This document shows, one piece after another, positions 2,393 to 24,141 of a DNA stretch of 35,503 nt (its first letter is position 1; each line of letters begins with the position of its first letter). Below the pieces are notes generated by a model that saw only the letters and a list, made by a program, of their open reading frames with translations, was not told where the DNA came from and did no database searches. This stretch comes from a bacterium (GTDB taxonomy: Bacteria; Margulisbacteria; Marinamargulisbacteria; JAHFDA01): the NCBI GenBank assembly GCA_023249225.1, contig JAHFDA010000019.1, positions 1 to 35,503 on the forward strand, written 5' to 3'. The position numbers and the translations under genes are program-made.

Positions 2393-5300
2393 ATGGCTGA
2401 CGTTTGTTTTGCGCCCGCATACGATGCCCACAATCCGCAGGTGTACTACCGCGACATGCAGGGGCTCAAGGCTGCTCCGGACTGCTTTTTGCAGGGTCTG
2501 GATGCCTTTGAGACCGGAGGTTTGCAACAGTTTGGAAAGTTAGAGTTGTCCGAACAACGTGAAATTCACCAGACCTTTAAAGCGTTGGTGGCGGCCTACA
2601 CCCTTGACCCGCAAGGGCAGCCGTATCGCCTGGATACGCTGCCGCTTTTGCATGCCACGCGTGAAGATGCTCTGCGTCTTTTAACCTATACCGACCTTAA
2701 CGATTTCATGGCCCATGCCGCGACCAATCTTAAAGCCTTTTACCAGCTCTGTTATGCGCCCTCGGTAGGGCTTTCAGCCGCGGAACAATTGCGTCTTAAG
2801 ACCACCTTCAATGACGGATTGCAGGTGCTGCGCCATGTCCTCAAGACCGGGCCCAGCCGTTCTGGACGCACCGTGGTCAATCCTGCCGACGGCAGCAGTG
2901 ATGCGCGCCGTGGCGTTGATCTTGCGGACTATAAGACGCCGGTCGAAAAAGCACGCGCCTTGCTTGAACAAGTGGGCGACTTCGATGCGCGCGGCCGTTT
3001 TGTGACCGATGTCAAAAACATTCAAAACGATGATCTGGCCTATTGCCTGGGTGGGGGCGACCGTTTGGCCGAAATCACTGATGTGATTGAAAAATTGTAT
3101 ATCGAAATGATCAAGTCGGGCAGCGAAAAAGAAATTGCTTTTGAGTTGATCTATGCCTTGTCGGCAGTGGTGCTCGAAGGCTACAGCCGACCGCCGCGTA
3201 AAAACGACTTAGAGGCTTGCCTGCGCGACCCGCTGGCAAACGGCGCTGAAGGGTGGATGCTGGCATCGGGTTTTACACGCATCATGATCATTTACGCCGA
3301 TTCGATTGCGGCCGATGCCGAACTGACGCGCGGGACGGGTTATGCCGCCGTGCAAAGAGTACGACAAATGCGTCCCCTGCTTAAGCAGTGTGTGCTTGAC
3401 CATGCCGATGGATTGCGTCAGGCGGCGGCCAGCGATGTGCACAACCCCGCGCTGGTGACCGCCACCGAAGTGGCTTTGCTGCGGGCCGAGGTGCTTGATC
3501 TTAAATTGCGGGTTTTTGAAGCGGGCCTCTTGTCGCTTGACAGCAATTGGATGCTTACACCCGACGAGGCACGGCGCATGATGGCTGATCTCAACACATA
3601 CGAACAGCGTGCTTTGGCGCTGGAGACCCGCGTGCGCAATGCCACGGGTACCCGTGACGACCGGGTCACCGACCAGCTTTTTTCTTATTTATACGGAGAC
3701 ATCCGCTACGTGGCAGCGCGGCTTTTAGAAGATGCCAACCATGTGACGCGGGGCACTTTTATGACCGATCCAGCCGCACGGGCCGCCTTTGATCGCATGA
3801 CTTCGGTGGCTATCCAAAAGGACAGCGATATTCTGCGTCTTTTGAACGACCTGGATATTCCCTTGCAAGAGGGACGGGCCGACGTGGGTTATTACGGGCC
3901 GCAGGGTGCTTACACACTTAAAGACCAGCCGGTGTACCAACCGGCAGCCTCGGCCACAGCTGCCCAGGCGCGCGTCTTTATGCTTTATGGGTTGATGGCC
4001 GCCAGTTCGTCCGACTCTTATAACTATGTGTGGGCCCAGTACGAAATTGCCAAGTTTCGCATTGATCGGTACCAGTCGAGCAACTGGAACGACAATTACC
4101 GACAGGCCTTAAACACTATCTTTAACGAAGTCTTACCCATTGGGCGCATTAAGTTTGCCACCTCGGCCCGTGAAAATATGGCGCAAGGTTTTCTTTATAA
4201 TCAGGCGCTGCTGTCGGTGGCCGAATTGTTTTTGCGCGTGCAGGATCCCAATATTGTCATCGATGTGTCTTGGCCCCAGAATTTGTGGGACACCCCCCAA
4301 GCATCTGGCCCGCGTTCGGCACGAGACCTCTGGAAGCTTTCACAAAAACTTTGCGAACAAGTGCTTGACCGCAGCAATAGCACCTACTTGCAGCGCGAAG
4401 CCCGCAAGTGGATGGTACGTAGTCTGCTCAAACTGGCGCCGTATGACCCGCAGGCCATCGACCATGCCCGGGACTGGGTGGAACAAAACATTCCGGCGCA
4501 GTATCCCTACGAACAAGAACGTGCGGCCTTGCTTTCAGAAGTGGCGCGTGAAGCGGCCAACCTGGGTTATCTGCCGCAGGCCGAAAGCTTGTTTCAAACA
4601 GCGGTGACGCATTTTGAAAAAGCGCAGGCCTACTATCAAAACCATACCCAGTCCAAGTACCTGCCGCTGGCGTATCGCCGGGCCTACGTCAGTACAGTCA
4701 TCGCTTATGCCAATCTCGAAATTCGTCTGCAGAAACTGCCGCAGGCGCAAGCGGTGCTCGCCCCGGTATGGGATTTTTCGCAACACGCGCCGCAATCCAA
4801 AGTATGGGGCAGCGGTGGCTGGTTTAACAGTGCCACGCCGCAAGATCGCTTCGAGCGCGAATCAGCGCAGTTTGAACTCTACGGAGCCGTGCTGGGATTT
4901 TATGAGCAGGCATACCCTTTGCAACAGGCATTCAATGCGGTTGATCCCCATTCACCACAAGCCTTTTATCCGGCTTTGGTGCAGGCTGCGGATGCTGCGG
5001 CTCTTCGACTGACTTCGGAGCAGCTTTTAAAACAAAATCCAGAATTGCAGACGGTACTGGCCACGCGCTGGCAATTGCTTAAAGCCAAGGTGCTTTCAGA
5101 TCAGCCGCCGGCATTGGATGCGGTGACTGAAAGCAACGTACTCGGGCAGATTCAGACGATCCTTGCGCAGGTTTTGTCCGAGACACAGAACGATCCGGAT
5201 CTATGGTACCTCAAACGTGAAGCCCAGCAGGGTCTGTTGCGGCTTTTGGCACGCAGCAGTTACAGCGCGGTCATCTTGCCAGAATATCCCGATTCACAGC

Positions 5301-8300
5301 AGGCCATGCAACAGCTTTACCTTGACTATGGCAGCAAACTCACAGCTGAAGCCCAGCGTTACAGTGGCGAAGTTAAAAGCAATGAACGCCGGGCGGTTTT
5401 TGCGGGACGCGTGCAGATGGCCGAGGATATGCTGGCCTACCAGCAAAATGCCATGGTTGAGTCCATGCTGATCTACGCGGTGGAGCAATACTACGACAGT
5501 CCGGGATTGGCCGAGTCACCGGGTGCGCTCGCAAAACTGGCAACAGATGAATTTGAGCGTGCAAAAAATCACGAATCGGGAGCGGATGCCGAAGGCGCAC
5601 GCACACTGGTGCGCGCCTTGCTGGCGCTGACGGATGCCTATGTTCAGCGGGGAGATTACGAACACGCCGCCGTGTTTTTGGCCGTATTGTCCGATGCACA
5701 GGGCGTTATTAAGCCCGGTGTGCAGGCCTTGTACGAAAACCAACGCATCGAAGCGGTTTTGCTCGAAGCCAAAGTGCTCGAACGTTCACTGATCCTGGCA
5801 ATGAACCGCCTGGATCCCCTGGCCAGCAACGCCGGACTTGAAATGTATTTTAAAGACACACTTTGGCCGCAGTGGATCAAGCTGCATCAGCTGCAGGACA
5901 CGATTAAGACCTTGTTTGCGGGTGCCAACAGCGATGTGCATGTCACGGCCCAGGTGCAGCTGATGATGCTGTCGCAGGAACTGCTCGCTTACGTGTCTGG
6001 TCTTGATCCCAAGGCGGCCGAGGCCATGCAGTTGCAGCCGCTTGCGGCGCTGGACCATCTCGATTTAAGCAATCCCGATTTGGCGGCGGCGGCGCGGGTC
6101 TATGACCGCTTGCTGGCCGATATTGACGGGTTGCTGGCCAGCCCTTATCTGGCACCCAGTCAGCGGCAGATTTTGATTGCCCGTCGTATGTCGCTCGGAA
6201 TGCGCCGGGCTTTTGTGGAACCCACTGAAACCAAGGTCAAGGTGGCTGTGGCCACGCTGGTATCGTTATACCTGCTTGACGGGCAGGATGTCACGCGAGC
6301 ACCCTTGCACACGCAACTTTCTGCCGCCAAACTGCAAGCCGTGCTTGACCGGCAGGCGCGCCTTTTGGGCCCACAGTCCTATCGCTATGTTGAACTTGAA
6401 ATGCTTGAGTTGCTGCGTATTTATGTGCAGATGAGCGAAGATATCGAAGCCACCGGATTCCTGGAACAGGCGTTTTTAAACAGCTTATCGAGGCCCTTGC
6501 CAGCCGACCTGGCGGCCAAGGCCCATATTAATCTTGCGCAACTTAAATTATTTAGTTTGCGTCAGCTTGGACAGGGAGAACCGGCCCAAGTGACCGAAGC
6601 CGCACGCGAGGTGCTGCAAATAGATCTTGCGACCGACCGGCCGGTGCCTGTGGGATTGCGTTTTCAATATCAGAGTTTGCAGGCCGATCTGATGGCTTTA
6701 ATGGCCTTTAAAACCCAGGATGACCTGGGCACGCAGCGTTCGCGCGCCGAAGAAGCCTGGCGTTTGTACGATGCCACAGCGGGGCTTGCGGTACCGGGTG
6801 TCTCGACCCTGGATCGCCTTAAACTGCGTATCTCACAAGCCTTGTTGATGGGCATCCTGCCACACAGTAGTGACATGAGCATTATCAGCGATATTCTGAA
6901 GCATCCGGATTTTCAAAATTTTGACGTACAGGATCAATGGCTTTACACCTATCGCCTGATCCACGCCATGTGGACCGGTCCGGGCGCGCAGGCCGAAACC
7001 CTGTTGCAATGCGAGGGCAAGATGCGTGAACTTTTGGCGCAACCCGGACAGGGGCCCCAGGCCATGCCCTTTGAAATTGAACTGGCTTTTCGTTATGACG
7101 TGATCCGCCTGCAAGCGCAACTGGTGGAGCTGGGTGCCAGCGACCGCCAACCGGCAGACCGTTATCGCGACATTGTGGCCTTTGCGGACTGGTTGATTTC
7201 CCGCGCCGATGGTGTCGGTGAACTTCCGTTACAGGATCTTTTGGATCCCATGGAAATTTCTGAAATTGCCGCCTTTTTGCAAGGCTGGCAGTGGCCCTTG
7301 TCGGATGCAGGCCATAACGAACTGGGGGTCAGCCTTTCGGTGTTGCCGCTAGAGGCTGCGCCCGAATTTCAGCGCGTATTGCAGAGCCTGCCGATATTGG
7401 ATGAACACGCGCAGCAGCTGCGTTTTAAGCGCTGGGATTATGAACGTTATGCCGGCAACTATGCTGCCGTCCTCAAGGATAGCCAGTCTGAACTAGGTCG
7501 CATGAGCCTGCCCACAGACAGTGCTGCCTTGCATGCTTGGATAGAGGGTGGCCATGTCACCGAACTTCCGCGCACAGCGCAGACGGCCCTCATGCAGATC
7601 TTGTTAGAACGTGCACGAGTCTATCGCGACCGTGGCAACGCTGGCGATCTTGTACAAGCGCTGACCTGGTACGAAATGGTCTTGCAGTTGCCTGTGCCGC
7701 TTGAGTCGCAGTGGCTGCTTTTGCAAGCCGAAACTGAATACGGAGACCTCATGTTGTTTTCGGCCAGCCGCTTGCCTCATAGCGTCAACTTATGGAAGCA
7801 GCTCGAAGCGGCACGTCCCAGCGCACAACTCTCCAAAGCCCAGTTTCCGCGCCTGACGTTGCAGCGCTCTTACGAACACGTGCGCTGGCAGGCCTGGGTG
7901 CGCCTGATGGTGAGTAGGTCTGGCAAGTTGCAGAAGCCCGGCGCCGCCACCACGCTTAAAATTGCGGCTTTCGAAAAGCGTTTATTACAGCAGGCCCACG
8001 AACGCGTTGCGCCGAGTACTGTGTCGCCCGAACTCTATCAACGCTGGGCCGAGGCCTATGCCCTGACGACCAGCGGCGACTTGTGGTTTGCAGTGGGTGA
8101 AGCCGAGCGCGGCATGCACAACTATGAACAAGCCTTGGCCGTCTTGCGTGACAGCGAACTGCGCTTTGCCTATGTCCAGCGTCTATTGAGCGCCTATGCC
8201 CAAACTCCAGCAAGCGATGCCACCACGCAAGCCATGCTGCGTGTTGCCCTTGACACGCAACTGCTGCGTTTGCTGGCCGATGATCCGTATCACTTGGGGG

Positions 8301-8329
8301 CGTTAAGGATACAGAAACAATTGCAATAA
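2393..8329 (+). CDS. 1978-residue alpha-solenoid-like protein of unknown function
   Basis: The start is decided by GGAGGAG 7 nt upstream. The N-terminus (MADVCFAPAYDAHNPQVYY) has no signal peptide, and I see no long hydrophobic segment, so the protein looks cytoplasmic unless exported by a non-Sec route. Nearly its whole length consists of amphipathic helices with TPR-like spacing of Ala, Leu and Tyr. Clear helix pairs include residues about 660-800 (nt 4380-4790, with phrases such as LGYLPQAESLFQTAV and LQKLPQAQAVLAPVW) and about 1830-1970. No catalytic signature is visible. It follows the truncated gene by 2 nt and very probably shares its mRNA and function. Pairs of huge TPR-type proteins usually act as scaffolds or adaptors, but that role is inference here. 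The next gene has its own promoter. Confidence 0.9.
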   Translation: MADVCFAPAYDAHNPQVYYRDMQGLKAAPDCFLQGLDAFETGGLQQFGKLELSEQREIHQTFKALVAAYTLDPQGQPYRLDTLPLLHATREDALRLLTYTDLNDFMAHAATNLKAFYQLCYAPSVGLSAAEQLRLKTTFNDGLQVLRHVLKTGPSRSGRTVVNPADGSSDARRGVDLADYKTPVEKARALLEQVGDFDARGRFVTDVKNIQNDDLAYCLGGGDRLAEITDVIEKLYIEMIKSGSEKEIAFELIYALSAVVLEGYSRPPRKNDLEACLRDPLANGAEGWMLASGFTRIMIIYADSIAADAELTRGTGYAAVQRVRQMRPLLKQCVLDHADGLRQAAASDVHNPALVTATEVALLRAEVLDLKLRVFEAGLLSLDSNWMLTPDEARRMMADLNTYEQRALALETRVRNATGTRDDRVTDQLFSYLYGDIRYVAARLLEDANHVTRGTFMTDPAARAAFDRMTSVAIQKDSDILRLLNDLDIPLQEGRADVGYYGPQGAYTLKDQPVYQPAASATAAQARVFMLYGLMAASSSDSYNYVWAQYEIAKFRIDRYQSSNWNDNYRQALNTIFNEVLPIGRIKFATSARENMAQGFLYNQALLSVAELFLRVQDPNIVIDVSWPQNLWDTPQASGPRSARDLWKLSQKLCEQVLDRSNSTYLQREARKWMVRSLLKLAPYDPQAIDHARDWVEQNIPAQYPYEQERAALLSEVAREAANLGYLPQAESLFQTAVTHFEKAQAYYQNHTQSKYLPLAYRRAYVSTVIAYANLEIRLQKLPQAQAVLAPVWDFSQHAPQSKVWGSGGWFNSATPQDRFERESAQFELYGAVLGFYEQAYPLQQAFNAVDPHSPQAFYPALVQAADAAALRLTSEQLLKQNPELQTVLATRWQLLKAKVLSDQPPALDAVTESNVLGQIQTILAQVLSETQNDPDLWYLKREAQQGLLRLLARSSYSAVILPEYPDSQQAMQQLYLDYGSKLTAEAQRYSGEVKSNERRAVFAGRVQMAEDMLAYQQNAMVESMLIYAVEQYYDSPGLAESPGALAKLATDEFERAKNHESGADAEGARTLVRALLALTDAYVQRGDYEHAAVFLAVLSDAQGVIKPGVQALYENQRIEAVLLEAKVLERSLILAMNRLDPLASNAGLEMYFKDTLWPQWIKLHQLQDTIKTLFAGANSDVHVTAQVQLMMLSQELLAYVSGLDPKAAEAMQLQPLAALDHLDLSNPDLAAAARVYDRLLADIDGLLASPYLAPSQRQILIARRMSLGMRRAFVEPTETKVKVAVATLVSLYLLDGQDVTRAPLHTQLSAAKLQAVLDRQARLLGPQSYRYVELEMLELLRIYVQMSEDIEATGFLEQAFLNSLSRPLPADLAAKAHINLAQLKLFSLRQLGQGEPAQVTEAAREVLQIDLATDRPVPVGLRFQYQSLQADLMALMAFKTQDDLGTQRSRAEEAWRLYDATAGLAVPGVSTLDRLKLRISQALLMGILPHSSDMSIISDILKHPDFQNFDVQDQWLYTYRLIHAMWTGPGAQAETLLQCEGKMRELLAQPGQGPQAMPFEIELAFRYDVIRLQAQLVELGASDRQPADRYRDIVAFADWLISRADGVGELPLQDLLDPMEISEIAAFLQGWQWPLSDAGHNELGVSLSVLPLEAAPEFQRVLQSLPILDEHAQQLRFKRWDYERYAGNYAAVLKDSQSELGRMSLPTDSAALHAWIEGGHVTELPRTAQTALMQILLERARVYRDRGNAGDLVQALTWYEMVLQLPVPLESQWLLLQAETEYGDLMLFSASRLPHSVNLWKQLEAARPSAQLSKAQFPRLTLQRSYEHVRWQAWVRLMVSRSGKLQKPGAATTLKIAAFEKRLLQQAHERVAPSTVSPELYQRWAEAYALTTSGDLWFAVGEAERGMHNYEQALAVLRDSELRFAYVQRLLSAYAQTPASDATTQAMLRVALDTQLLRLLADDPYHLGALRIQKQLQ

Positions 8330-9296: not shown

Positions 9297-10901
9297 ATGG
9301 CCGCTTCAAATGCCTGTGTGACTGCGGTGCGGGGGCGGACGGGGCTTGCGCGTGCGCTTTGCCAGGCGCACAAAATTAGCCTGCTGGCCCAACAGCCCCA
9401 CAGGCCTCCGGCAGACGAACTGCTTGCCATCTGGCGCGAAAAAATGACCCGGCGTGAATTTCTCAAGCGTTCCGCGCAATCACTTGCGGTTCTAACCGTG
9501 GCGGGCAGCTTGCCCTTGCTCGAAGCGTGCAATCGCAAGGCATTCTCACCACGGGTGGCCATCGTGGGCGCAGGTTTGGCAGGTTTAAATGCTGCCCGGA
9601 TTTTAAAAAAAGGCGGCCTAACGGCGCAGGTCTACGAAGCCAGCACACGGGTGGGTGGACGTGTGTATACGGCCAAGGATCTTTTGGGGGCCGATCGCCT
9701 GACCGAATTGGGGGGCGAATTTATCGACAGCGGCCACCTGGATATTCTGGCGTTGGTGAAAGAATTTGATCTCGAACTTATTGATCTGCATGATTCGGCA
9801 CAGGCTGGATTGCAGACGCTGTATTATTTTGGCGGGCGAAAATACGCCATGAAAGATCTCCTGGCGGCCTATCAGCCTTTTGCGGAACGCATCCAGGCCG
9901 ATGCCGATCGCACGGCCGATGTGGTTGACTTTGAACACGAGGGCGGGGCAGGGCGTCTTGATCGCATGTCACTTTCAGACTATTTTAACCGGCTGGATAT
10001 CATCGGTTGGTTGCGCAGTTTTCTTGAAGTGGCTTATGTGACGGAATATGGTCTTGAGACAGGTGAACAATCAGCTTTGAATTTTATTTTCATGGTGGAC
10101 ACTGACCTTGCAGATGGCGATTTTTCTGTTTTTGGAGCAAGCGACGAGCGTTTTAAAATCAAGGGCGGAAACGGCGCGTTGGTGCGTGCCATGCAAAAAC
10201 GTGTGCAGCATCAGATCTCGACCGGTTACCGTTTGCTGGCTTTGCGCAGCACGGGCATCGGATACCAATTAAGTTTTGGTACCGAGGGCGGCGGTATTCG
10301 TGATGTGGATGCCGATGTGGTTTTGCTGGCGTTACCGTTTACGTTGCTGCGTGAGGTAGACATCCGTGTCGAACTACCGGCTTTCAAGCGCCGCGCCATC
10401 GACCAGCTGGGTTACGGCAGCAACGCCAAAATTTTTGCGGGGTTTAACCAGCGCGTGTGGCATCAACATGGTTTTAGTGGAGAAGTGTTTAGCGATCTTT
10501 CGAGTCAGTTGCTGTGGGATAACAGTGTGGGGCAGTCGGGCGAAGCGGGCGGTCTGACCTCATTTTTAGGCGGAACGGCCGGACTGCGTTGCGGGGCCAT
10601 CGACAGCGCACAGTGGGTGACAGACATGCTTAAACAACTTGAAAAAGTGATTCCAAAATTACCGGCTGCTTTTAATGGCCAGATCGGGCGCTTTCATTGG
10701 CCCAGTCATCCTTATACCAAGGGGAGTTATGCCTGTTACCGGCCCGGACAGTGGACCCGTATTGCCGGGGCTGAATTCAGACCGGTCGGGAACCTGTTTT
10801 TTGCCGGAGAGCATTGCAGCAGTGAATATCAGGGCTATATGAACGGCGCTGCCGAGACAGGACGTCTGGCAGCGGAGGCTATTTTAAAGCTGATCAAGTA
10901 A
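9297..10901 (+). CDS. Tat-exported flavin monoamine oxidase family protein
   Basis: This is a flavin-containing amine oxidase fold protein. Numbering from the ATG at 9297, residues 51-57 are TRREFLK, a perfect twin-arginine signal. It is followed by a hydrophobic core and LEAC (75-78), a plausible lipobox, suggesting a lipoprotein exported folded with FAD. The Rossmann dinucleotide motif is VAIVGAGLAGLNAARIL (87-103), with E114 for the ribose and RVGGR (118-122) typical of the family. The C-terminus has the second FAD motif GEHCSSEYQGYMNGAAETG. Such enzymes oxidise amines or amino acids with release of hydrogen peroxide; the substrate cannot be read. A 49-residue stretch precedes the Tat motif. 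ATG 9444 would put the signal at the extreme N-terminus, but other family members have similar helical extensions and the predicted transcription start sits at 9297. Its link to the surrounding unknown genes is unclear. Confidence 0.88.
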   Translation: MAASNACVTAVRGRTGLARALCQAHKISLLAQQPHRPPADELLAIWREKMTRREFLKRSAQSLAVLTVAGSLPLLEACNRKAFSPRVAIVGAGLAGLNAARILKKGGLTAQVYEASTRVGGRVYTAKDLLGADRLTELGGEFIDSGHLDILALVKEFDLELIDLHDSAQAGLQTLYYFGGRKYAMKDLLAAYQPFAERIQADADRTADVVDFEHEGGAGRLDRMSLSDYFNRLDIIGWLRSFLEVAYVTEYGLETGEQSALNFIFMVDTDLADGDFSVFGASDERFKIKGGNGALVRAMQKRVQHQISTGYRLLALRSTGIGYQLSFGTEGGGIRDVDADVVLLALPFTLLREVDIRVELPAFKRRAIDQLGYGSNAKIFAGFNQRVWHQHGFSGEVFSDLSSQLLWDNSVGQSGEAGGLTSFLGGTAGLRCGAIDSAQWVTDMLKQLEKVIPKLPAAFNGQIGRFHWPSHPYTKGSYACYRPGQWTRIAGAEFRPVGNLFFAGEHCSSEYQGYMNGAAETGRLAAEAILKLIK

Positions 10902-10918
10902 TTTTACGTAAAATTTAC
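10900..10918 (+). promoter_or_regulatory. Conserved palindromic AT-rich element upstream of the giant gene
   Basis: AATTTTACGTAAAATT (10900-10915) is a perfect 16-bp palindrome. GTAAAATTTAC (10908-10918) is an overlapping inverted repeat with a single central base. The 18-mer at 10901-10918 recurs with one mismatch at 21917-21934 before the kinase gene, and in both places 30 nt separate it from the -35 box. It lacks the GC stem and U-run of a terminator. Its constant position favours a transcription-factor site. Confidence 0.6.
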
Positions 10919-10948: not shown

Positions 10949-10976
10949 TGAAATAAAGCCACTTTTTTTCCGAAGA
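10949..10976 (+). promoter_or_regulatory. Sigma-28-like promoter (TGAAATAA-N12-TCCGAAGA)
   Basis: TGAAATAA (10949-10956) and TCCGAAGA (10969-10976) are 12 nt apart, as in the four sister promoters. The -10 departs from CGATA at one base (CGAAG). The predicted start is at about 10983-10985, leaving an 8-10 nt leader without a ribosome binding site before the ATG at 10993. Confidence 0.6.
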
Positions 10977-10992
10977 ATAAATAGATTAATTT

Positions 10993-13900
10993 ATGAGTGA
11001 AAACAACCCGGTTGGCCAGGCTCAAAGCCCCGTGCTTTGGGACCGTCGATTTAACATGGGCGAGGGCGTCAAGCCCGATGATCCCGTTTTGGCTATTCCT
11101 GAAAATTTAAAACAACGTTATCAGATTTACCGGCCTTACCTTTCGCAAGACGTTTTAACGTATCTCGATGCCACGTTTGCGCGCGGAGAACTTAAAGCCT
11201 ACGAATTGGATCACTTGCAGGCTTACCTCAACACACTGGAGTTACGCATACAAATTTTAAGCGATCAGGATGCTTCCATATCCCAGGCTCCGCAGGGAGC
11301 CTTGGTTTTTTATCATAGCGCCGACTTGTTTGATCGCGTGCTGCCCACAGGTGTTCCGCATGCCTGGGGCTGGATGGCCCAGATGGAAATTTTGCTGCAA
11401 CGGGGTTATTTAAGTTCGCTGGCCGCCTGTGATCTGCTGCGCCTTGCGGCGGCGGATGGCGGCGAAAAGCTGCCCGAGATGATTGCCTACGAAACCGGAA
11501 CGGGGAATTTTACGTATCACGCTTCGTCCTCGTCTTTTCCGCCTTCAGCCGAAGTTTTGGGTAGCTGGGCGCAATCGCTGATCGAGACGCATCCAGTGAT
11601 CAGCAGCAACGCGTTTCTTAAAATACGGCTGCTGCTGGTGCTTTCTGAAATGCTGCTTGCGGGTGTGCAAGACGGCACGCTTTTGGCAGAAGATTATTCG
11701 GATTTATTGCAGTCCTGGCAGGCCCAGCTTCCGGTCGGAGAAACACCCCAGGCCCAGGCCGCCTATGCCCCGTACCGCGCCCAGTTTGAATTCACGTTGC
11801 AGTATTTGCAATACTGCGCGGGAACGTTGCCAGAAGCTCAATTTTTAAAAGTCGCCCAGGCGGTGCAGCAGAGCGCGCAGGCCCAAACTCCGCCGCAGCG
11901 CTTGCTGGGGCAGCGTGCAGCGTTGGCCGTGCTTGAAATTCAAAATCGCGGCAAAGCACCACTGGCCCAACTGGTAGCCTGGAATGCGCTGCTGCAATCT
12001 TGCGAGGGCGTCTATACCTTGCCGCTTTTATATGCGCGTGAAACGCAATGTGCCCAGTTGGTGCAAGAGCAACTGGCGGTGTCGGGCTTATACGATAACA
12101 ACGGCGATGGCTGGATAAGCGCTGCCGAAGAATCAGATGACAGCGGTTACCGCAGTGCCTACGATATTCACCCCAATCAACTTCAGACCGCTGGACGGGA
12201 TGCGCAGGTTTCAGGGGCCCAAGCTTCAGTGTACAAACGGGCCATTTCAGTAGCGGAATATTTGCAGGTGGCGCTGGCGCGGGAGGCGCATCAATCTGCA
12301 AAAAAATACGTGGTGTATTTACCACTTGAAGGTACAACCTTTACCCAAGGAGCCTTATCGGAGTCTCGGCAATTGCAAGTAGATGAAAGCCGCGCGCTGA
12401 CGACCGAAGTGATGACGCGTTGGATGCCAGCCACCGGATTGCTTCCCGAAGTGGTGCTGGCGGCCGAGGCCATGACTTTTGAAAAACGTGCTGCGCTTTT
12501 AAAAATTTTTGATGGCCGGGATCTCAACTTAAAAGCAGACCGTCAGGCGGTGAGTGCGGCTTTGCGTGAATGCATGGCTGCCTCAACCGATCAAACCTAT
12601 TCAGCACTGGATGCCGATGCGCTGCTCATGGTGCGTGACTATCTAAGCAAGGCCCAGGCGGTGGCCGCCGATGCGGGTGCATATACGCCGACACAAGTTA
12701 AGGCCATTGCAGCCGTTTGCGATGCCGAGGCGCTGCAGATCCTGTTGCGGCCAATCGGAGTGGTTCATTTAGATCATTTCCGCTCGGATCCGCTTGAGGC
12801 CTGGAACGCCAAAGACCGCCGCGCCCTGCAAAAAGATATCGATGCTTTGCACCGAGCCCTGCGGCAAGTTCCGCAAAACCGGGCAGCGGCCTATATGTTG
12901 GCGTATTTATACGAGAATGCATTAAAGGATCCGCAAGCCGCGTTGGGCATGTATCGGCATTTGTTATGGGCCGCAAACACGCCAGACACGGTGGGTCTCA
13001 TGGATGATGAACAGACCCTTGAGCGCTTGCGGCTTCTGGCTGAAACCAAGACACAATCATTGCCGCTGGCCATTGCCGCACAAACGGCTGAAGCGGCCCA
13101 AAACGGCATGTTGCAAAATACAGCGCGCTTGCGTTACCGGCAGGCGGGCGTTGAGGCCATGCATGCACAAGCCATTAACGTGGCGGTCGGACGGGCGTCG
13201 GCGTTGGAGGCCGAATACCAGTATGGCTTAAGCGTGTTTCTTGACCGCGCGCGCCAGACGCAGTTAGGTGTGACGGCTGTAGGCGGCACGTATCGCGCCG
13301 GTCTGGGGCTGGATTTTGATTGGCAACTTGCTTCGCATACCACGCTGGGTTTTGGCGCGGGAGCCTTTTTTCAGACGCTTAATTCCAATGATTCGGCGCT
13401 CTTTCACGGATTTTTAGGGGCCGATTTTTCGCACCGTTTTTATGGAGACAATCCGTACACGCTGACGGGACAAGTCAAACCCTTTCAGGGTGCCCAATTT
13501 GAGGCACGGGCGGGGTATGACGTGCTTACGGGTCAGCCCGAGGGAGTGCTTCAAATTTCACAAAGCTGGATTCCATCTGTCATTTTTGATCATCCCGAAC
13601 ATTTTTTTCTGGCGCAAATGCGCGTGGGCGTGGAACTTTCGGCGGCCGATCAGTTTACGCTGGCAACGCTGGCGCAAGCCCTTAATCCGGTCCAGTTTGG
13701 GATCCATGGCGATAGCCGCCTGTGGTCGGGCATGCAAATGTATTACGACGCCCGTTTGGCCTTTTGGGGCAGTTATGCCAGTGCGCTTTTGGCCACCGAT
13801 CCGGGTGTGGGTTTGCAGTTTGGTTTAGGTGGCATGGCGTGGTTGCCTTCGCTCACCAGTCCGCTTTCCATAGGGGCTTCGCCTTATCTGGCGCTCGGCA

Positions 13901-16900
13901 TCAAAGATTTTATGCAAGCCGATCAGATTCACCTGGGGCTTTTTTACTTTGGTTTGCAGCACAGCAGCCATATGCCGGGCGCAGCCAATTACCGTTATGG
14001 TTTTACGCTGCCGCTGGGATTTTTTGCTGATACCTACGTGAACCCCGGAGAAACGGCGCCGGATGGCCGCTATGGAGCCTACCCCGACCTGCAACATCCC
14101 GATTATGCCGTGATCAATCTACAAAACGGCGGTGTCGAATTTAGTCATGTCGATGAGGCTTATTCGGTGCAGCGGGGCACATCCAAGGAACTTTCCAAGA
14201 CTGATTGGCAACTGGTTTATCAGGGCTGGACCAAAACCAAGGATCTCGACGCCAAGGTGGCGGCAAAAAAATGGGGTGCTTACGACCCTACGCACGCTGC
14301 CATCCGCACGGATCTATATTTACAGGTCGATGCGGCCAGCGGTCAAATTCAGTTTCGGTATCTGCAGGGCGGAGTACCGGTGACCTTGGATGCGCTGGAT
14401 GCCACCCAGCGCGCGGTGGTGCAGACCCGCATGGCGCAACTGACGCAGGAATATCTCACGGCCCTGACGCAACAGGCCGCGCAGGCATTGCAAAGCAAAG
14501 ACGAACGATTGGCGTTTGAGTATCTGCAGCAGGCCGTGATTTTGTCGCAAGATGACCCCGTCCAGGTCGAAAACCTGGTGGGACTGCTTGAAAGCTGGCT
14601 GGGGCGGGACACGCTGCCACTTGACGCGGCCGTAGTGGTACGCGAGATCAGCCGTTTACAAAACCGCTTACGCGGCGAGCATAGCGCACTCGCTGGTAAG
14701 GTGGCTTCTATTTACATTGCATACGCACAAAAATATCCCGACCTTTTTAAAGATGCGCGGCTGGCCGATGCATGGGTTGCGGCGGCACCTGTGGATGGGC
14801 ATGCGGTACGCGGTTTTGATGTGATTGCCATGGCCGAGATCAAAGGCGCAGGGGCTCAAAAACGTCAGCGCTTGCAGGCGTTTATCCAGCCGCAGCACCC
14901 CGAAGTGGCGCGCCTTGGGCAGGAGCTGGCCGCAGCGATTCAGGCCCAGTACGGAGACGCGTTGACATCCGAACAGCTGGCCCTGTCAATTTTAAAGTAC
15001 CTGACCCTGGTGACCGAATACCACCAGGATGGGCCTGCCGAAGGCGGTTTTGTAGAGCCTTCGGCCCTGGCCACAGTGCTTTTGGGTTCGGCACAATACG
15101 ATCCCGCAGCGGTGTTGCAAGGCCAGCTACCGCAGCAGCGTCTGTTGGCCGACTGCGATCTGGCGAATAGTTTTGTCAGCCTGTATCAGGCTGCGCTGCC
15201 CGAAGCCTTTCCGCAACTGTCTCCGGCTGCAGTGGACGAACTGGCTGCGCAAACGCGCGTGGCCATGCTGCTTTCAGACTCCGGCGCTGACCTTGAAGAC
15301 ACGCGCGACGATACCTACCACGCGGCGGCGCTCTGGGATAGCGGCGGTCAACTATACGCGCTCGATGTTCCGCCGGCCGACATTAAACTGCGCGAAGATT
15401 ACGGACTGGCCAGTGATTTTAAGCAACTCGATGCCAGGGTGGATGCCGCTGGAGCCAGCTTAAAACTTAATGGCGACCGCTTGCTTTTAACGTACGACGC
15501 CAAGGGTATTCAGCTGGGCAATCCCCGTTTTCAATGTGCGCCCTATGCCACTTTAGACGCAGCAACAGGGCGCCTGATTTTTGGAACTTTTGACTTGCAG
15601 GGCACTTTTCGGCGGGTGGCTTCTTCGCTAAAGATCTCTGACGTTTACGAGCAAATGTACTGGTTGCGCCGTTCCATCCTTGACGAGGGTCTGTATGATT
15701 CGGTGACCATCGGCTACAGCGATGCAGCCGGACGCGTGCACGACATTGTCTTTTCGTCCGATGAAAACAACCCCGACACGCTTACCATGCGCGAGACGGT
15801 TTCGGAGGCGGGTGAAAACGATCTGTATGAGCTGTATGCCTACGATGCTTCGGCCACCTGGGTGGCGCTTAGCAGCGCTGCCGGTACCGACTACGCTGTG
15901 ACCGAAGATGAGACCACCACTTACGTCAACACCAGCGGAAACGAAGTCACCCTGGGCTACGACAATTCGCTGTGGTCTGGTGAAACGCTGTCTTCTGACG
16001 ACGTATCTTCGGGGGCCTTTACCGCTTATGCTTATCTGACCGGCCAGGAAAGTTCGCAGACCCAAACCTACGCATACAACGTGACCACGGGTGCCATTGA
16101 ACTGGTGGCCGAATCTACGGGTGAGAATACGGTGGATTATCAAAACAGCGTGGCGACAGAAGATTCCAACGTAGCGGCTCCGCTGTACCGCGAGATCAGT
16201 TTTACCGAAGACGAGGCGGGCCACGGATCCTTTAGCGTGTGGTCAACCGAAGACCATGATTCCACTGGCACCACTGTCACTTACAACGAAGATGGCACCT
16301 ATAACTACACGATGCATACCGAAGGGGGCACAACCGAATTGATCCTGGGCGCAGATGATGAGGTCACCGATTTGCAGGTGACCGAAACTGGAACCACGGT
16401 GCTGGTGATGAGCAGCGATGGCACGCGTAGTGTGACGGTTAATATCGCAGGCCAGGCCGTAGGTGCTTCGCAGCTTTCGGGCTTGATCATCGATACCCAG
16501 TCTTATCATGCGGATACCACTATTACCATTGAAAGCAGTTCCGATTCCGAGGTTTTGGTCGACAATGCCACCGAAGAAGAAAGCAGCTTATACAGTGACG
16601 AGTCGAGTACCACGACCACGGTCACCATCGAGACCGGCGGCGAAACGGTAGAAAAAAACCTGACGCTGTCCAACGCCTTTACCGGAACCACGATCACCAT
16701 TGAAGGCACCGAAGATCTGGCTTACACGACCGATGTCAATGATGTGACCATCGAAGACACGATCGGCAGTGAAGGCACGCACACGCTGGAGAGTTCCGGA
16801 AGCAGCGTTACCACTTATGCGGGCAGCGGCACTACGCAGCAAACCACGACCATCGATTTTAGCGGTGCCCTGGGGCAGGTCGCGGGCCTGGTGCTCGATA

Positions 16901-19900
16901 TCAGTGCGTATGACGTGAGCAACGGGTATATCTATGTGACCTATGACAGTTCAGAAGATCTCAATGGCTCCACGTCAAACAGCACCACGGTCTATGGCTA
17001 TACCTATAACGGCACAGGCACAAACGAAACCAGCATCGTGATTTCGGGGTCAGTCTATAACAATGACCGCATCGAGATCGAAGGCAACGGAACCTACACC
17101 TACACCACATATACCGATGACCCCAATACCGAAGCCGTCGAAGAAGGTTTAAGTACCGAAGTGGTGGTGACCGATGGCGACCAAGCCACCATCACGCGCA
17201 GCGACGATCTGACGACAGTGACGTTTATGAATTATCAAGCCGATACCACCACCACCTATTTCATCGACCGGGCTAATCCGCTGGGCCAGACCACCACGGG
17301 CATCCAGGTCAGCAATCGCCACGAAGAGGGAAACAGCACCATCACGGTGACAAGCAGCGTGGATGAGCAACAAGTGGTCAGCGTCGACGGTTTGTGGGAC
17401 GCCGTGTTTGCCGATCCCGAGTTGCAGTCAGCGCTTGAAGCCTATCTTGAAGACGGCCAAGCACTCGATGATTTAACGCTCGAAGAATTGGCCTTGCTGG
17501 TGGCCGAAGCCATTGCCGATGGCGCCATCGATGACAGCAGTTTTATTGAAACCTATACCTACGATGCCAGCACCGAAACCTGGGTGGTCACCGACAGCAC
17601 GGTCACCGAGAACAATTCATATACGGTGGAAATCGTCAATCCCATCACGGGGGGCACCTTGCTGGTGTCAGAGGTCAGTGATATCACCTACGACTTGCAT
17701 AGCGAGTCGTACGAAAAAGTTGAAACCGACGCATCAGATTCCGAAACGCCTGATGCCAGCGAAAGCAGCTTAAGCAGCACGCGCGCGTATACCAGCGATA
17801 CCACCGGCACTTTTAGTTCCGATACCACGCGTTTTACGATTTATGACCAGCATCAGGTTTTGCTTTATGGCATGACCATTGATCAGAGTTCGCAAAGTTA
17901 CGAAGTCTGGAAGGGCAGCGGTGATATTTTGATCAGCACCCAGACTGAAGAAACTGAAAGTAGCTATACCAGCACCAGTTCTACCGAAACCAGTTCCGAT
18001 GACACTTTGCAAGAAGGCGCCAGCGTGACTGAAACGATCACCCGCGGCGGCAACCCTGTGCAGACCAACGATCACACGGTGAACACGGTCACGAGCTACA
18101 GCGAAAAAACGGCGGGCACCGAGCATACCGAAGCATTTACGGTGACCGGCAACGACAACGGCGTCGAAACAGTGGTCAGTGGTTATAACAGCGAAATTCA
18201 CCTGTCGAGCGCCGTGACAGAAAGCTCCGTGACGGATACCGACTATATCGATGCGGGTGGCGCACACGTAACCGGTTCCACCATCGAGCTGTATTACGGC
18301 GAAGAGAACCAGTCCTTGCAAATCGCTTACGTGCAGCGTACCGGACCTGGGGGTCAACTTGAGGTGAGCAGCACCGAGATGGTGATTACGCGTTTGCTCA
18401 ATGGCGTATACCAGTCCAGTTTTACCATCGACAATCCCGAAGAAGGCATGCAGATCACCGTTAACGAAAACGGCACGATGGATGTTTATTTGCAGGTCAA
18501 TGGCGAAACAGCCGCGCTTACGCTTTACGATGCAGAGGGCAACGGGGCCATGTTGCAGGTAGACAATCAAGTGGTGCTTATGGCGGGCCATTACCAAATT
18601 CACGAGGGCCAGCGCCGCGTAGAGTATGACGATGGGGCCTGGGAACTGCGCCATTACAGCGGAGACAGTTATGTACTGATGCAATCTGAATCCAGCACCA
18701 CATCGCAGGGCACAAGTGAGCGCGTTGCTTCGGATGTCGAAGAAGGTGTCTACGAACAGCAATTTACGGGGGGCAGCGTGGCAAACACCAGCACTGCCAC
18801 AACGTTAAGCGCCTCGCAGATCACCTACGATGGCCAGGGCGTTAGTCACGAAGGCATTGCTTACGTCATTGCCGGTGAAACGCTGACCTATAGCGAGAGT
18901 ACGCTTAACTACAATGACCAGGTGGCGCTGGAGGATGTGAATCAGGCGCTGGCAGACGGGGATATACTGGCATTGCAAAACGAACAAGTCACCGTGGTGC
19001 TGGGACGTTCCATGACGGTACGTCCGGGAGCGGCAGCTTATGCAACGGTGTTTAGCCAGACCAGCACTGCACGCGATGGCAGTACCGAAAGCGGGCCGCG
19101 GGATATTTTTGTGCAGCGCGTCAGCGCCGATGTCACGCGCAGTCTGGATTTTAAGGCCTCACATACGGTGGCGACAGTTTTACGCAGTCCGGAACAGGCA
19201 GACGTGCAGGCCCTGCGTGCATTTTTAGGTGGCAGCGAAGGACCGCGCAATCCGCGTCTGCCGGGCTATGCTTACCGCACCACGGCCATTGCCGCGTTTG
19301 AAGCGGCGGTGGCTTCTGGACTGGATGCCGAAGAACGTATGGCCAAGCTTAAGGCTGCCATCGAAGTGTTCGGACAGCTGGGCTACTATGACCGCGCCCG
19401 TGTGCTGGCTTATTACCGTGATTGGCAGGTGCGTGGCGTGACGGAGGATGCCGAAACACTGCGTCTGGCCGAAGTGTATTTGATTCACCCGGCCTGCAGC
19501 ATGCATGCCGACAGTGCGCGTATGGGTATCGAAAATTTACTTGGCACCCTACAGGATCCATCGGCCAAGCAGGTGCTCCAATACCTGTACGACTACGAGA
19601 ATTATCTTTTAACAGTCGGCCATTATGACGAAAGTTACCAGCATGAAGTCAAACGCTACCTGGCACTTTTATATGTGGCAGCCGACGGTGTGACGCCAGC
19701 CTTGCGCCGTGATCTGGGGCTGGTGCTCGAAGCCATAAGCTGGCTCTACATGACGGATCCCAAGTTGCGGGCGCTTTCAGATTACGTCACATCGGCCTAT
19801 GCGGCTGACTCAAAAAAGGCAGCACCTTCCGGAACCACATACCGCACACAGACACACGGCCAGCAGTCGCAGGGTGACTATTATTACGATTTCAGCTGGG

Positions 19901-21915
19901 GAGCGGAACTACAAAAAATTTATGATCAAACCCAACAATCTGTAAACGCGGTGGCCGGCACGGTAGACAACAACGCAGCGGCAGTGGCGGCCACCCATGC
20001 CCAAATTGCGCCCGTGATTTCAACCGGGGTTTTACCGGCAGTGCAATCAGACGACACCACCATCATATCGCCCGAAGGTTTTGACGTCAGTCAGCCGCAG
20101 ACACCCAACGTAGATGTGGCTGAAGAAACCTATCAACCCACGCAGCACTACGATGAATCACTTGATGATGCTTACATCCATCCGCAGGAACGCGAGCTGG
20201 GGCAAGAGGCCGAAGCCGACCTGGGGCCGGTCACCTTGTTGTGGGGTCTTGATTTAAAAGAAAGTAACACGGGCGACAAGGTGGCTTACACGGCCGGTGC
20301 CGAGTCAGATTTTGTTGAAGTGCATGTGACGGTGCCGGTGGAGCAGTGGCAATTGCCGGCCTTGCAATTTGTAGCGGTGAGTTCAACCAGCGCATTAACC
20401 CAGCATCTTTCGGCAGCCGATGCGGCGGGCAATGCCTTTGATTGGACGCAGGTCACCGACACCGATGTCTTTGACGTGTACATGCTGACCTATGATGTGC
20501 AGGAGTCCGATTCATACCAGGCCGATCTCACCTTAAAGGTGCCGCTCGGAAGCAGCGTGTATTGGGTAACCCGCGCCGATGCCAATACCTTTGACCCTTA
20601 TTATTTGCGGGGTTTGGTCGAAGCCAACACCGAAGTGCTGTACGAAGGCTTGCGTACCGGTGTCAGTGTCCAAGCCTCTGTGGCGGTTTTCGAAGACGGC
20701 ACCGTATCGCAGGGCGGTGGTTTGGGCGGGCTGTACCGCTTTAGCCAGCAATGGGCGCTGACGGGTGGTGCATCGCTGCGGCGCGACAGCGCCCAGCTTG
20801 AACTGGGTGAACGCGATGGTATCCAAAGTGACCAATTAGGCGTGAACACTTACGGTGCCGTGCTGGGACTAGAATCTTCTTACGATACAGGAGTCTTTGC
20901 GGACGAGGTGCACAGCTTTGAAGTCAGCGCCGAACATCTGGCCTATGACGATGGATTTACCGATGACCGCCTGCGCGTTGGATTTTCTTACAGCGGCCCG
21001 GTACAGCGGCAGTCCTGGGTCAAAAACCTGCCGCTGATTGGTTTGTTTGCGGTGCATGCCGGGCAAGCAACGGAGCAAGGTCATGCCCTGGCTCTGCGTG
21101 ACAAACGTGATGTGTACGATGCTTTTGTCAGCGACGTGTCGCTATGGTTTCCAGACTACCTGTTGCCGGCCGTCGAGGTGTTTCCGATGGAGAGTGTGAC
21201 CCAACTCAAGACCGAACACGAGCAGCTTAAAAAGGCTTTGCAACATTATCAGTACCACAAAGCCATCGGCTGTTTTAAACGCTTGTATGCGCAGGCGCCC
21301 AATGACGCGGTGCGCTTGTTTTATTACCAGATGGCGCTCGAGCTTCAGGATCAATTGCCGGAAGCTGCAGCGGCACAGATGCAGCGCCGTTTTCTAGCAC
21401 CGTATTTTGCCGAAAAATTAGCGACGCCCGCCGGAGACATGGATGCCTTGCTGACCGAATTGCTCGACGAAGTACTGGCGCATTTTTCGGCCCGCGAGCA
21501 GCTTGGTTTTTTAACGCGCTATGCGCAGCAGCATCCCGAAGTGGATGTCAGCGCCCGGATCCAAAAAGCCACCGCCCAAATGTTGGATGAACGCCATACG
21601 TATCAGCAGTTTATCGGGCAACTGGCGGGACAACCTTATGCTGTTCAGCAGACCATGGTCGAAAACTTTTTACAGACCCATCCCATGTTCTCATATGCCA
21701 AGCAACTGAAAAAGCACGAAGCCTTTTTATTCAAGCAATATCTGACGGATGCCGACACCCTCATAGAAAAACAATGCCGCAGTTTGCAGCTTGCCTGGAT
21801 TCATGATGACCAGGCTGCATTTTTAACCCAAAAACAGGCTTTGCTGGCCCAGGCGGCTGGCTTGCCTACGGAGCAGCGCGAGACGTTGGAACAGTATGTA
21901 TATGGTTTTCAATAA
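10993..21915 (+). CDS. Giant 3640-residue composite protein of unknown function
   Basis: One uninterrupted 10.9-kb frame. The N-terminus (MSENNPVGQAQ) has no Sec or Tat signal. Regions in order: helical, about 1-730, containing a full EF-hand loop DNNGDGWISAAE at 368-379 and TPR-like helices near 620-700; a Gly/aromatic alternating stretch at about 737-1020 resembling an outer-membrane barrel; a helical part at about 1120-1500; a Ser/Thr/Asp/Glu-rich beta segment at about 1570-2700 with almost no Lys and no Cys, including YxYD/N hairpins at 1617, 1693 and 2188 and one helical insert near 2130-2180; a helical part at about 2720-2880; a beta segment with a second short barrel-like stretch at about 3207-3343; and a TPR-like C-terminus from about 3390. 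I see no protease, glycosidase, RTX or Ig-repeat signature. The mix suggests a surface or envelope protein, but the missing signal argues that export, if it occurs, is not by Sec. It has its own promoter. Confidence 0.92.
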   Translation: MSENNPVGQAQSPVLWDRRFNMGEGVKPDDPVLAIPENLKQRYQIYRPYLSQDVLTYLDATFARGELKAYELDHLQAYLNTLELRIQILSDQDASISQAPQGALVFYHSADLFDRVLPTGVPHAWGWMAQMEILLQRGYLSSLAACDLLRLAAADGGEKLPEMIAYETGTGNFTYHASSSSFPPSAEVLGSWAQSLIETHPVISSNAFLKIRLLLVLSEMLLAGVQDGTLLAEDYSDLLQSWQAQLPVGETPQAQAAYAPYRAQFEFTLQYLQYCAGTLPEAQFLKVAQAVQQSAQAQTPPQRLLGQRAALAVLEIQNRGKAPLAQLVAWNALLQSCEGVYTLPLLYARETQCAQLVQEQLAVSGLYDNNGDGWISAAEESDDSGYRSAYDIHPNQLQTAGRDAQVSGAQASVYKRAISVAEYLQVALAREAHQSAKKYVVYLPLEGTTFTQGALSESRQLQVDESRALTTEVMTRWMPATGLLPEVVLAAEAMTFEKRAALLKIFDGRDLNLKADRQAVSAALRECMAASTDQTYSALDADALLMVRDYLSKAQAVAADAGAYTPTQVKAIAAVCDAEALQILLRPIGVVHLDHFRSDPLEAWNAKDRRALQKDIDALHRALRQVPQNRAAAYMLAYLYENALKDPQAALGMYRHLLWAANTPDTVGLMDDEQTLERLRLLAETKTQSLPLAIAAQTAEAAQNGMLQNTARLRYRQAGVEAMHAQAINVAVGRASALEAEYQYGLSVFLDRARQTQLGVTAVGGTYRAGLGLDFDWQLASHTTLGFGAGAFFQTLNSNDSALFHGFLGADFSHRFYGDNPYTLTGQVKPFQGAQFEARAGYDVLTGQPEGVLQISQSWIPSVIFDHPEHFFLAQMRVGVELSAADQFTLATLAQALNPVQFGIHGDSRLWSGMQMYYDARLAFWGSYASALLATDPGVGLQFGLGGMAWLPSLTSPLSIGASPYLALGIKDFMQADQIHLGLFYFGLQHSSHMPGAANYRYGFTLPLGFFADTYVNPGETAPDGRYGAYPDLQHPDYAVINLQNGGVEFSHVDEAYSVQRGTSKELSKTDWQLVYQGWTKTKDLDAKVAAKKWGAYDPTHAAIRTDLYLQVDAASGQIQFRYLQGGVPVTLDALDATQRAVVQTRMAQLTQEYLTALTQQAAQALQSKDERLAFEYLQQAVILSQDDPVQVENLVGLLESWLGRDTLPLDAAVVVREISRLQNRLRGEHSALAGKVASIYIAYAQKYPDLFKDARLADAWVAAAPVDGHAVRGFDVIAMAEIKGAGAQKRQRLQAFIQPQHPEVARLGQELAAAIQAQYGDALTSEQLALSILKYLTLVTEYHQDGPAEGGFVEPSALATVLLGSAQYDPAAVLQGQLPQQRLLADCDLANSFVSLYQAALPEAFPQLSPAAVDELAAQTRVAMLLSDSGADLEDTRDDTYHAAALWDSGGQLYALDVPPADIKLREDYGLASDFKQLDARVDAAGASLKLNGDRLLLTYDAKGIQLGNPRFQCAPYATLDAATGRLIFGTFDLQGTFRRVASSLKISDVYEQMYWLRRSILDEGLYDSVTIGYSDAAGRVHDIVFSSDENNPDTLTMRETVSEAGENDLYELYAYDASATWVALSSAAGTDYAVTEDETTTYVNTSGNEVTLGYDNSLWSGETLSSDDVSSGAFTAYAYLTGQESSQTQTYAYNVTTGAIELVAESTGENTVDYQNSVATEDSNVAAPLYREISFTEDEAGHGSFSVWSTEDHDSTGTTVTYNEDGTYNYTMHTEGGTTELILGADDEVTDLQVTETGTTVLVMSSDGTRSVTVNIAGQAVGASQLSGLIIDTQSYHADTTITIESSSDSEVLVDNATEEESSLYSDESSTTTTVTIETGGETVEKNLTLSNAFTGTTITIEGTEDLAYTTDVNDVTIEDTIGSEGTHTLESSGSSVTTYAGSGTTQQTTTIDFSGALGQVAGLVLDISAYDVSNGYIYVTYDSSEDLNGSTSNSTTVYGYTYNGTGTNETSIVISGSVYNNDRIEIEGNGTYTYTTYTDDPNTEAVEEGLSTEVVVTDGDQATITRSDDLTTVTFMNYQADTTTTYFIDRANPLGQTTTGIQVSNRHEEGNSTITVTSSVDEQQVVSVDGLWDAVFADPELQSALEAYLEDGQALDDLTLEELALLVAEAIADGAIDDSSFIETYTYDASTETWVVTDSTVTENNSYTVEIVNPITGGTLLVSEVSDITYDLHSESYEKVETDASDSETPDASESSLSSTRAYTSDTTGTFSSDTTRFTIYDQHQVLLYGMTIDQSSQSYEVWKGSGDILISTQTEETESSYTSTSSTETSSDDTLQEGASVTETITRGGNPVQTNDHTVNTVTSYSEKTAGTEHTEAFTVTGNDNGVETVVSGYNSEIHLSSAVTESSVTDTDYIDAGGAHVTGSTIELYYGEENQSLQIAYVQRTGPGGQLEVSSTEMVITRLLNGVYQSSFTIDNPEEGMQITVNENGTMDVYLQVNGETAALTLYDAEGNGAMLQVDNQVVLMAGHYQIHEGQRRVEYDDGAWELRHYSGDSYVLMQSESSTTSQGTSERVASDVEEGVYEQQFTGGSVANTSTATTLSASQITYDGQGVSHEGIAYVIAGETLTYSESTLNYNDQVALEDVNQALADGDILALQNEQVTVVLGRSMTVRPGAAAYATVFSQTSTARDGSTESGPRDIFVQRVSADVTRSLDFKASHTVATVLRSPEQADVQALRAFLGGSEGPRNPRLPGYAYRTTAIAAFEAAVASGLDAEERMAKLKAAIEVFGQLGYYDRARVLAYYRDWQVRGVTEDAETLRLAEVYLIHPACSMHADSARMGIENLLGTLQDPSAKQVLQYLYDYENYLLTVGHYDESYQHEVKRYLALLYVAADGVTPALRRDLGLVLEAISWLYMTDPKLRALSDYVTSAYAADSKKAAPSGTTYRTQTHGQQSQGDYYYDFSWGAELQKIYDQTQQSVNAVAGTVDNNAAAVAATHAQIAPVISTGVLPAVQSDDTTIISPEGFDVSQPQTPNVDVAEETYQPTQHYDESLDDAYIHPQERELGQEAEADLGPVTLLWGLDLKESNTGDKVAYTAGAESDFVEVHVTVPVEQWQLPALQFVAVSSTSALTQHLSAADAAGNAFDWTQVTDTDVFDVYMLTYDVQESDSYQADLTLKVPLGSSVYWVTRADANTFDPYYLRGLVEANTEVLYEGLRTGVSVQASVAVFEDGTVSQGGGLGGLYRFSQQWALTGGASLRRDSAQLELGERDGIQSDQLGVNTYGAVLGLESSYDTGVFADEVHSFEVSAEHLAYDDGFTDDRLRVGFSYSGPVQRQSWVKNLPLIGLFAVHAGQATEQGHALALRDKRDVYDAFVSDVSLWFPDYLLPAVEVFPMESVTQLKTEHEQLKKALQHYQYHKAIGCFKRLYAQAPNDAVRLFYYQMALELQDQLPEAAAAQMQRRFLAPYFAEKLATPAGDMDALLTELLDEVLAHFSAREQLGFLTRYAQQHPEVDVSARIQKATAQMLDERHTYQQFIGQLAGQPYAVQQTMVENFLQTHPMFSYAKQLKKHEAFLFKQYLTDADTLIEKQCRSLQLAWIHDDQAAFLTQKQALLAQAAGLPTEQRETLEQYVYGFQ

Positions 21916-21916
21916 T

Positions 21917-21934
21917 ATTTTACATAAAATTTAC
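21917..21934 (+). promoter_or_regulatory. Second copy of the 18-nt element, upstream of the kinase gene
   Basis: ATTTTACATAAAATTTAC differs at one position from 10901-10918 and sits 30 nt before the -35 box, exactly as there. It begins 2 nt after the giant gene's stop codon. A related word, TTACTTGAAT (21945-21954), occurs in inverted orientation at 24047-24056. Confidence 0.6.
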
Positions 21935-21964: not shown

Positions 21965-21992
21965 TAAAATCGTTATTCAAATCTTTCGATAT
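21965..21992 (+). promoter_or_regulatory. Sigma-28-like promoter (TAAAATCG-N12-TTCGATAT)
   Basis: TAAAATCG (21965-21972), 12 nt, TTCGATAT (21985-21992). The expected transcription start (21999-22001) coincides with the ATG at 22000, and there is no ribosome binding site, so the kinase mRNA is probably leaderless. Confidence 0.65.
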
Positions 21993-23964: not shown

Positions 23965-23970
23965 AGGTTG

Positions 23971-23994
23971 TCATCCCGGCTTTTGCCGGGGTGA
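23971..23994. repeat. REP-like GC-rich hairpin, possible terminator
   Basis: TCATCCCGGC and GCCGGGGTGA form a 10-bp stem (one G-T pair) around a TTTT loop, 7 nt after the kinase stop codon. No T-run follows, so it is not a textbook intrinsic terminator. Its wording resembles the short dispersed palindromes of the GTCATCCCGGC type that many bacterial genomes carry between genes. It may do both jobs. Confidence 0.6.
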
Positions 23995-24029
23995 TAATGA
24001 ATAATTCAGGCTGGATGATGTACACGCGA

Positions 24030-24058
24030 GTAAAATTTACTTTAAAATTCAAGTAAAT
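24030..24058. promoter_or_regulatory. GTAAAATTTAC element with adjoining 8-bp dyad
   Basis: GTAAAATTTAC (24030-24040) matches the core of the elements at 10908 and 21924. It overlaps a perfect inverted repeat, ATTTACTT (24035-24042) and AAGTAAAT (24051-24058), separated by 8 nt. The core ends 73 nt before the -35 box of the downstream promoter. A protein-binding site is likely; an AT-rich stem of this kind would be a poor terminator. Confidence 0.5.
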
Positions 24059-24113: not shown

Positions 24114-24141
24114 TGAAATCGTCATTTTTTTTCTCCGATAG
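24114..24141 (+). promoter_or_regulatory. Sigma-28-like promoter (TGAAATCG-N12-TCCGATAG)
   Basis: TGAAATCG (24114-24121), 12 nt, TCCGATAG (24134-24141): the best -10 match of the set to GCCGATA. The predicted start near 24148 gives a leader of about 28 nt, and GGAG (24164-24167) lies 8 nt before the ATG at 24176. This is the only member of the family with a normal leader and ribosome binding site. Confidence 0.7.

Follow-up and report, generated by a model that had tools for sequence, protein, structure and literature searches.

An 11-bp dyad, GTAAA-N-TTTAC, recurs upstream of promoters of a giant orphan protein gene, a protein kinase gene and other loci in one bacterial genome

The 35,503-nucleotide stretch of DNA analyzed here ("the window") raises the question of why the genes for a giant protein and a protein kinase are preceded by nearly identical short sequences, and whether these are regulatory sites. 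The first gene (10993–21915, forward strand) encodes a 3640 amino acid protein without a Pfam, NCBIfam or PDB-sequence match, and the second (22000–23964, forward strand) a 654 amino acid protein with a Ser/Thr protein kinase domain (PF00069, E 7.9e-29). The 18-mer ATTTTACGTAAAATTTAC (10901–10918, forward strand) lies directly 3' of the stop codon of an amine-oxidase-like gene (9297–10901), and ATTTTACATAAAATTTAC (21917–21934, forward strand) differs from it by a single mismatch. Counted on the sequence, 30 nt separate the first copy from the −35-like hexamer TGAAAT (10949–10954) and the second from TAAAAT (21965–21970); 16 nt past these hexamers lie −10-like boxes, CGAAG (10971–10975; a poor match) and CGATA (21987–21991), respectively. 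This pair of 18-mers and their exact 30 nt distance to a −35 box had been described in a first-pass annotation of this DNA, and the description is borne out by the sequence and by dinucleotide shuffles of the window, which contain on average only 0.03 matches to the 18-mer at three or fewer mismatches.

The part of the 18-mer that recurs is shorter. A search of the whole genome (2.83 Mb in 121 contigs) found 16 copies of GTAAAATTTAC on either strand and 4 of the reversed pattern, and four further relatives of the 18-mer at two mismatches; in two of these the 11-bp core is present and is followed by an ECF-like promoter. When GTAAA and TTTAC are allowed spacers of 0–8 nt they occur together at 48 places genome-wide, 20 of them with a spacer of one, as against a mean of 3.5 for each other spacer (Poisson P about 1e-9). 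Sixteen of these 20 dyads have A or T as the central base and four have C or G, and none of the flanking bases outside the 5-1-5 core is conserved. In a sample of about 1.25 Mb, one-mismatch variants of the core are nearly absent except for the change of G1 to A, which is the change found in the second copy (ATAAAATTTAC at 21924–21934). In the window the core is present as GTAAA-A-TTTAC at 10908–10918, and a repeat search of the window found a third copy, GTAAAATTTAC at 24030–24040, that had been missed in the first reading (neither was assigned a strand). The first-pass annotation had emphasized a 16-bp palindrome, AATTTTACGTAAAATT (10900–10915, likewise unstranded), and it is indeed perfect in the first copy, where it overlaps the core, but it is confined to that copy and does not recur; the conserved unit is GTAAA-N-TTTAC instead. 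The palindrome TTTTACGTAAAA was also considered as the conserved unit and rejected, as TTTAC-N0-GTAAA occurs five times genome-wide, no more often than with other spacers, and the opposite order TTTAC-N-GTAAA, the type to which the 16-bp palindrome belongs, has no spacer peak in the whole-genome counts. In the literature, searches with the 11-mer and the palindrome returned incidental sequences only. GTAAA-N-TTTAC is a real cis-element, a new motif of an ordinary kind.

For our statistics we used about 1.25 Mb of genome stretches, in which a simple hexamer-based caller found 1050 genes, together with pattern searches of the whole genome; the contigs were partly picked for sites, so that all 16 W-centred sites are included and rates among sites, rather than densities, were compared. 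All 16 exact W-centred cores are intergenic, where the intergenic share of the sequence is about 10%. Among all of the sites, several directly adjoin the stop codon of the gene before them; that at L078:13736 is flanked by convergent genes, and that at L071:1557 is in the probable 5' UTR of gapA.

Counting spaced words in the regions ahead of genes, independently of the element, yielded two promoter classes. Class A, TG(A/C)AA(C/T)-N16-CGATA, has 106 whole-genome matches (three for the reversed pattern) and resembles the SigW/ECF promoters (TGAAAC-N16-CGTA) in its −35 and spacing but has CGATA as its −10; we take it to be the promoter of a putative ECF (SigW-like) sigma class. A literature search for the class A promoter found nothing on point. 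Class B, GTTTA-N15-GGGAA, is similar to the sigma-B promoters (GTTTAA-N12-15-GGGWAW) and is presumably read by a sigma-B-like factor, the sigma class being putative here as well; 57 upstream regions score above 11 (seven for the reversed pattern), and one site-bearing class B gene encodes an RsbU-like SpoIIE phosphatase with a HATPase domain. Nine matches to sigma-70 region 2 are present in the genome. The giant gene has the class A promoter TGAAAT-N16-CGAAG (10949–10975, forward strand; PWM score 12.3), whose −10 deviates from CGATA, and the kinase gene has TAAAAT-N16-CGATA (21965–21991, forward strand), whose −35 is off consensus and which ends 8 nt before the start codon. Downstream of the third core is another class A promoter, TGAAAT-N16-CGATA (24114–24140, forward strand), with the core 73 nt ahead of its −35, and then a gene for a 335 amino acid protein of no assigned family (24176–25183, forward strand).

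The cores are strongly associated with these promoters. A class A or class B promoter lies 0–80 nt downstream of 12 of the 20 N-centred cores (seven class A and five class B), as compared to 11.5% of A+T-matched intergenic 11-mers; against random intergenic positions this gives a binomial P of about 8e-9, with mild circularity in that the PWM training regions include element-bearing promoters. The other eight cores have no called class A or B promoter in that range. Only one of the 20 overlaps a called core promoter (9.2% of the controls do so). The gaps to the −35 are 18, 21, 30, 31, 33, 46 and 73 nt for class A (and 30 nt for the variant second copy), and 7, 7, 11, 21 and 36 nt for class B; an alternative parse of the L042 promoter gives a gap of 18 nt. 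There is no fixed distance over this 7–73 nt range and no clear helical phasing. Thus the 30 nt spacing, which the first-pass annotation had taken as characteristic of the element, is not so; the agreement between the giant and kinase genes is real yet falls inside a broad range, and its exactness may be a coincidence. The same annotation had named an outcome that would damage its proposal, namely numerous copies within genes or at random distances from promoters; we looked for this and did not find it, 16 of 16 exact W-centred cores being intergenic and 12 of 20 N-centred cores promoter-proximal. Element-bearing class A genes do not have significantly weaker core promoters (P 0.21).

The promoter-linked core is a feature of this genome, because the copies sampled in its relatives sit in open reading frames and are almost free of promoters. 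In most of the other relatives the 11-mer is at or below its reversed control, and in the four with raised counts (G033, G036, G039 and G035) all 20 sampled copies fall within open frames, the shortest of 179 codons or more; one of the 20 has a class B score above 11 nearby, and otherwise there are essentially no such promoters. A motif common to the phylum was rejected on these counts.

A recurrent dyad above chance that is intergenic and promoter-proximal is what is expected of an operator, and cores 7–73 nt ahead of the −35, with one in 20 over a core promoter, have the position of upstream activator sites. We consider it reasonably probable that GTAAA-N-TTTAC serves as operator for a single putative regulator, sequence-specific, probably dimeric and likely an activator, which acts upstream of two alternative-sigma promoter classes at some 15–20 loci. 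Such a regulator would bind the dyad upstream of the −35 and activate transcription at both class A and class B promoters; activation from upstream is suggested because the cores lie upstream of the −35 and clear of the core promoters. The first-pass annotation's proposal of a site for a dimeric activator or repressor thus appears sound as to a symmetric, promoter-linked element far above chance, though not as to the palindrome chosen as its unit.

A protein bound at the core could instead be a repressor that prevents transcription, perhaps through DNA looping or by keeping an activator away. Repressor sites are commonly short, strict dyads; the L079 core overlaps a called class B core promoter, the core at L072:6077 is immediately next to a TTGACT-N17-TATAAA promoter, and that of gapA is downstream of a possible −10. 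Nearly all of the assigned cores are nevertheless 7–73 nt upstream and off the −35/−10 region, a position not expected of a simple steric repressor, and we regard repression as unlikely. It is quite improbable that the core is a site unconnected with transcription (for a DNA methyltransferase, for chromosome organization or as a 3'-end element) whose nearness to promoters merely reflects short intergenic regions. The cores that touch stop codons and the one between convergent genes would fit such a role, but the excess over A+T-matched intergenic controls 0–80 nt upstream of promoters would not, and a dyad this short lacks the hairpin-forming structure of a terminator.

A further possibility is that no regulator of its own is involved and that the alpha subunit of RNA polymerase contacts the core as an UP element or as A+T-rich DNA with intrinsic curvature, since the core is A+T-rich, lies upstream of the −35 and is only 7–11 nt away at several class B promoters. 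Against this, the 11-mer is strict, dyad-symmetric and fixed in its spacer rather than a degenerate A/T tract, its distances to the −35 reach 46–73 nt, and it is absent from most class A promoters, all of which make this explanation very improbable. Given the higher A+T content of intergenic DNA as compared to genes, two such stretches could resemble one another by chance, but the shuffles, the reversed control (4 versus 16) and the spacer-1 excess leave this almost no probability, and for the core the counts refute it.

To return to an upstream activator, its sites would be much like those of class I-type activators such as CRP, which are short inverted repeats at variable distances upstream of the −35 in a dispersed regulon; the core differs from them in sequence, in being an 11-bp dyad with a one-base centre, and in its two alternative-sigma promoter classes. 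Fur-family boxes are A+T-rich 7-1-7 inverted repeats, and the A+T-rich dyad with a single central base is a lead in that direction only, as the core is 5-1-5 without conserved flanks and its targets are not metal genes. The 7-1-7 form of a Fur-family box is not seen here, conservation being confined to the 5-1-5 core. The gene for an ArsR-like double-HTH protein (L044:19030–19701) has a core in front of it, but its product is no more than a lead for the regulator: in G031 the double-domain homologue is not preceded by such a dyad, and the motif is not in excess there.

Under such a regulator the giant gene, the kinase gene and the 24176 gene would be three adjacent transcription units among some 15–20 loci. 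Outside the window, the core-bearing loci include those of a second protein kinase (L079), a protein with a GH8-like match (L042), the RsbU-like SpoIIE phosphatase (L046), the ArsR-like protein and several orphan proteins, and no common pathway is evident among these targets. The direct co-regulation of giant and kinase that had been proposed is therefore not private to them, in that the element upstream of both is shared with the 24176 gene and about 15 other loci, including class B promoters; judged from sequence, their co-regulation is plausible as a non-exclusive part of a wider regulon. A more ambitious proposal, which we hold to be rather doubtful, is that one global activator, through an operator of 11 bp that is unusually strict, coordinates the ECF-like and sigma-B-like regulons of this deep-branching bacterium and turns on giant orphan proteins together with protein kinases. 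What began as a guess about two genes becomes a regulon hypothesis with about 20 sites, which places a protein kinase and an orphan protein of 3640 amino acids under one putative control and supplies a genome-specific motif and target list for an uncultivated-looking lineage with no regulon known.

Several other features of these sequences deserve mention. Very large orphan proteins with no Pfam match are encoded at 2393–8329 (1978 amino acids) and 10993–21915 (3640) in the window and at L042:5135–12025 (2296); at the last, TTTACGTAAAA precedes a class A promoter, as the first copy does. A single FlhA/SctV-family export gene (L114:10251–12338, E 2.5e-248), belonging to either a flagellum or type III secretion, has GTAAAGTTTAC and a class B promoter directly 3' of it. 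Several intergenic regions (window 23970–24000; L042 and L095) contain a GC-rich hairpin repeat with the pattern TCATCCCGGC-TTTGCCGGGATGA.

Class A promoters are found, for example, at 8386, 22000 and 24176 in the window and in L124, L039, L034 and L036, and class B promoters at L046:5372, L075:4059, L076:1328 and L114:10228. Class A exceeds its control in almost every one of the 51 relatives examined and so appears to be a phylum-wide alternative-sigma promoter. Many class A genes begin 6–14 nt past CGATA and are probably leaderless (e.g., L030:6202–6960, L124:5391–6062, L115:10082–12616 and window 22000–23964). The pattern [KRH]-x-[VILT]-A, which was picked after viewing the list, occurs in the first 16 residues of 21 of 30 class A genes and 64 of 923 others; its codons vary, so it looks like an N-terminal signal at the protein level. 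It is absent from the giant protein and present in the kinase (MELRAVAEPEQ).
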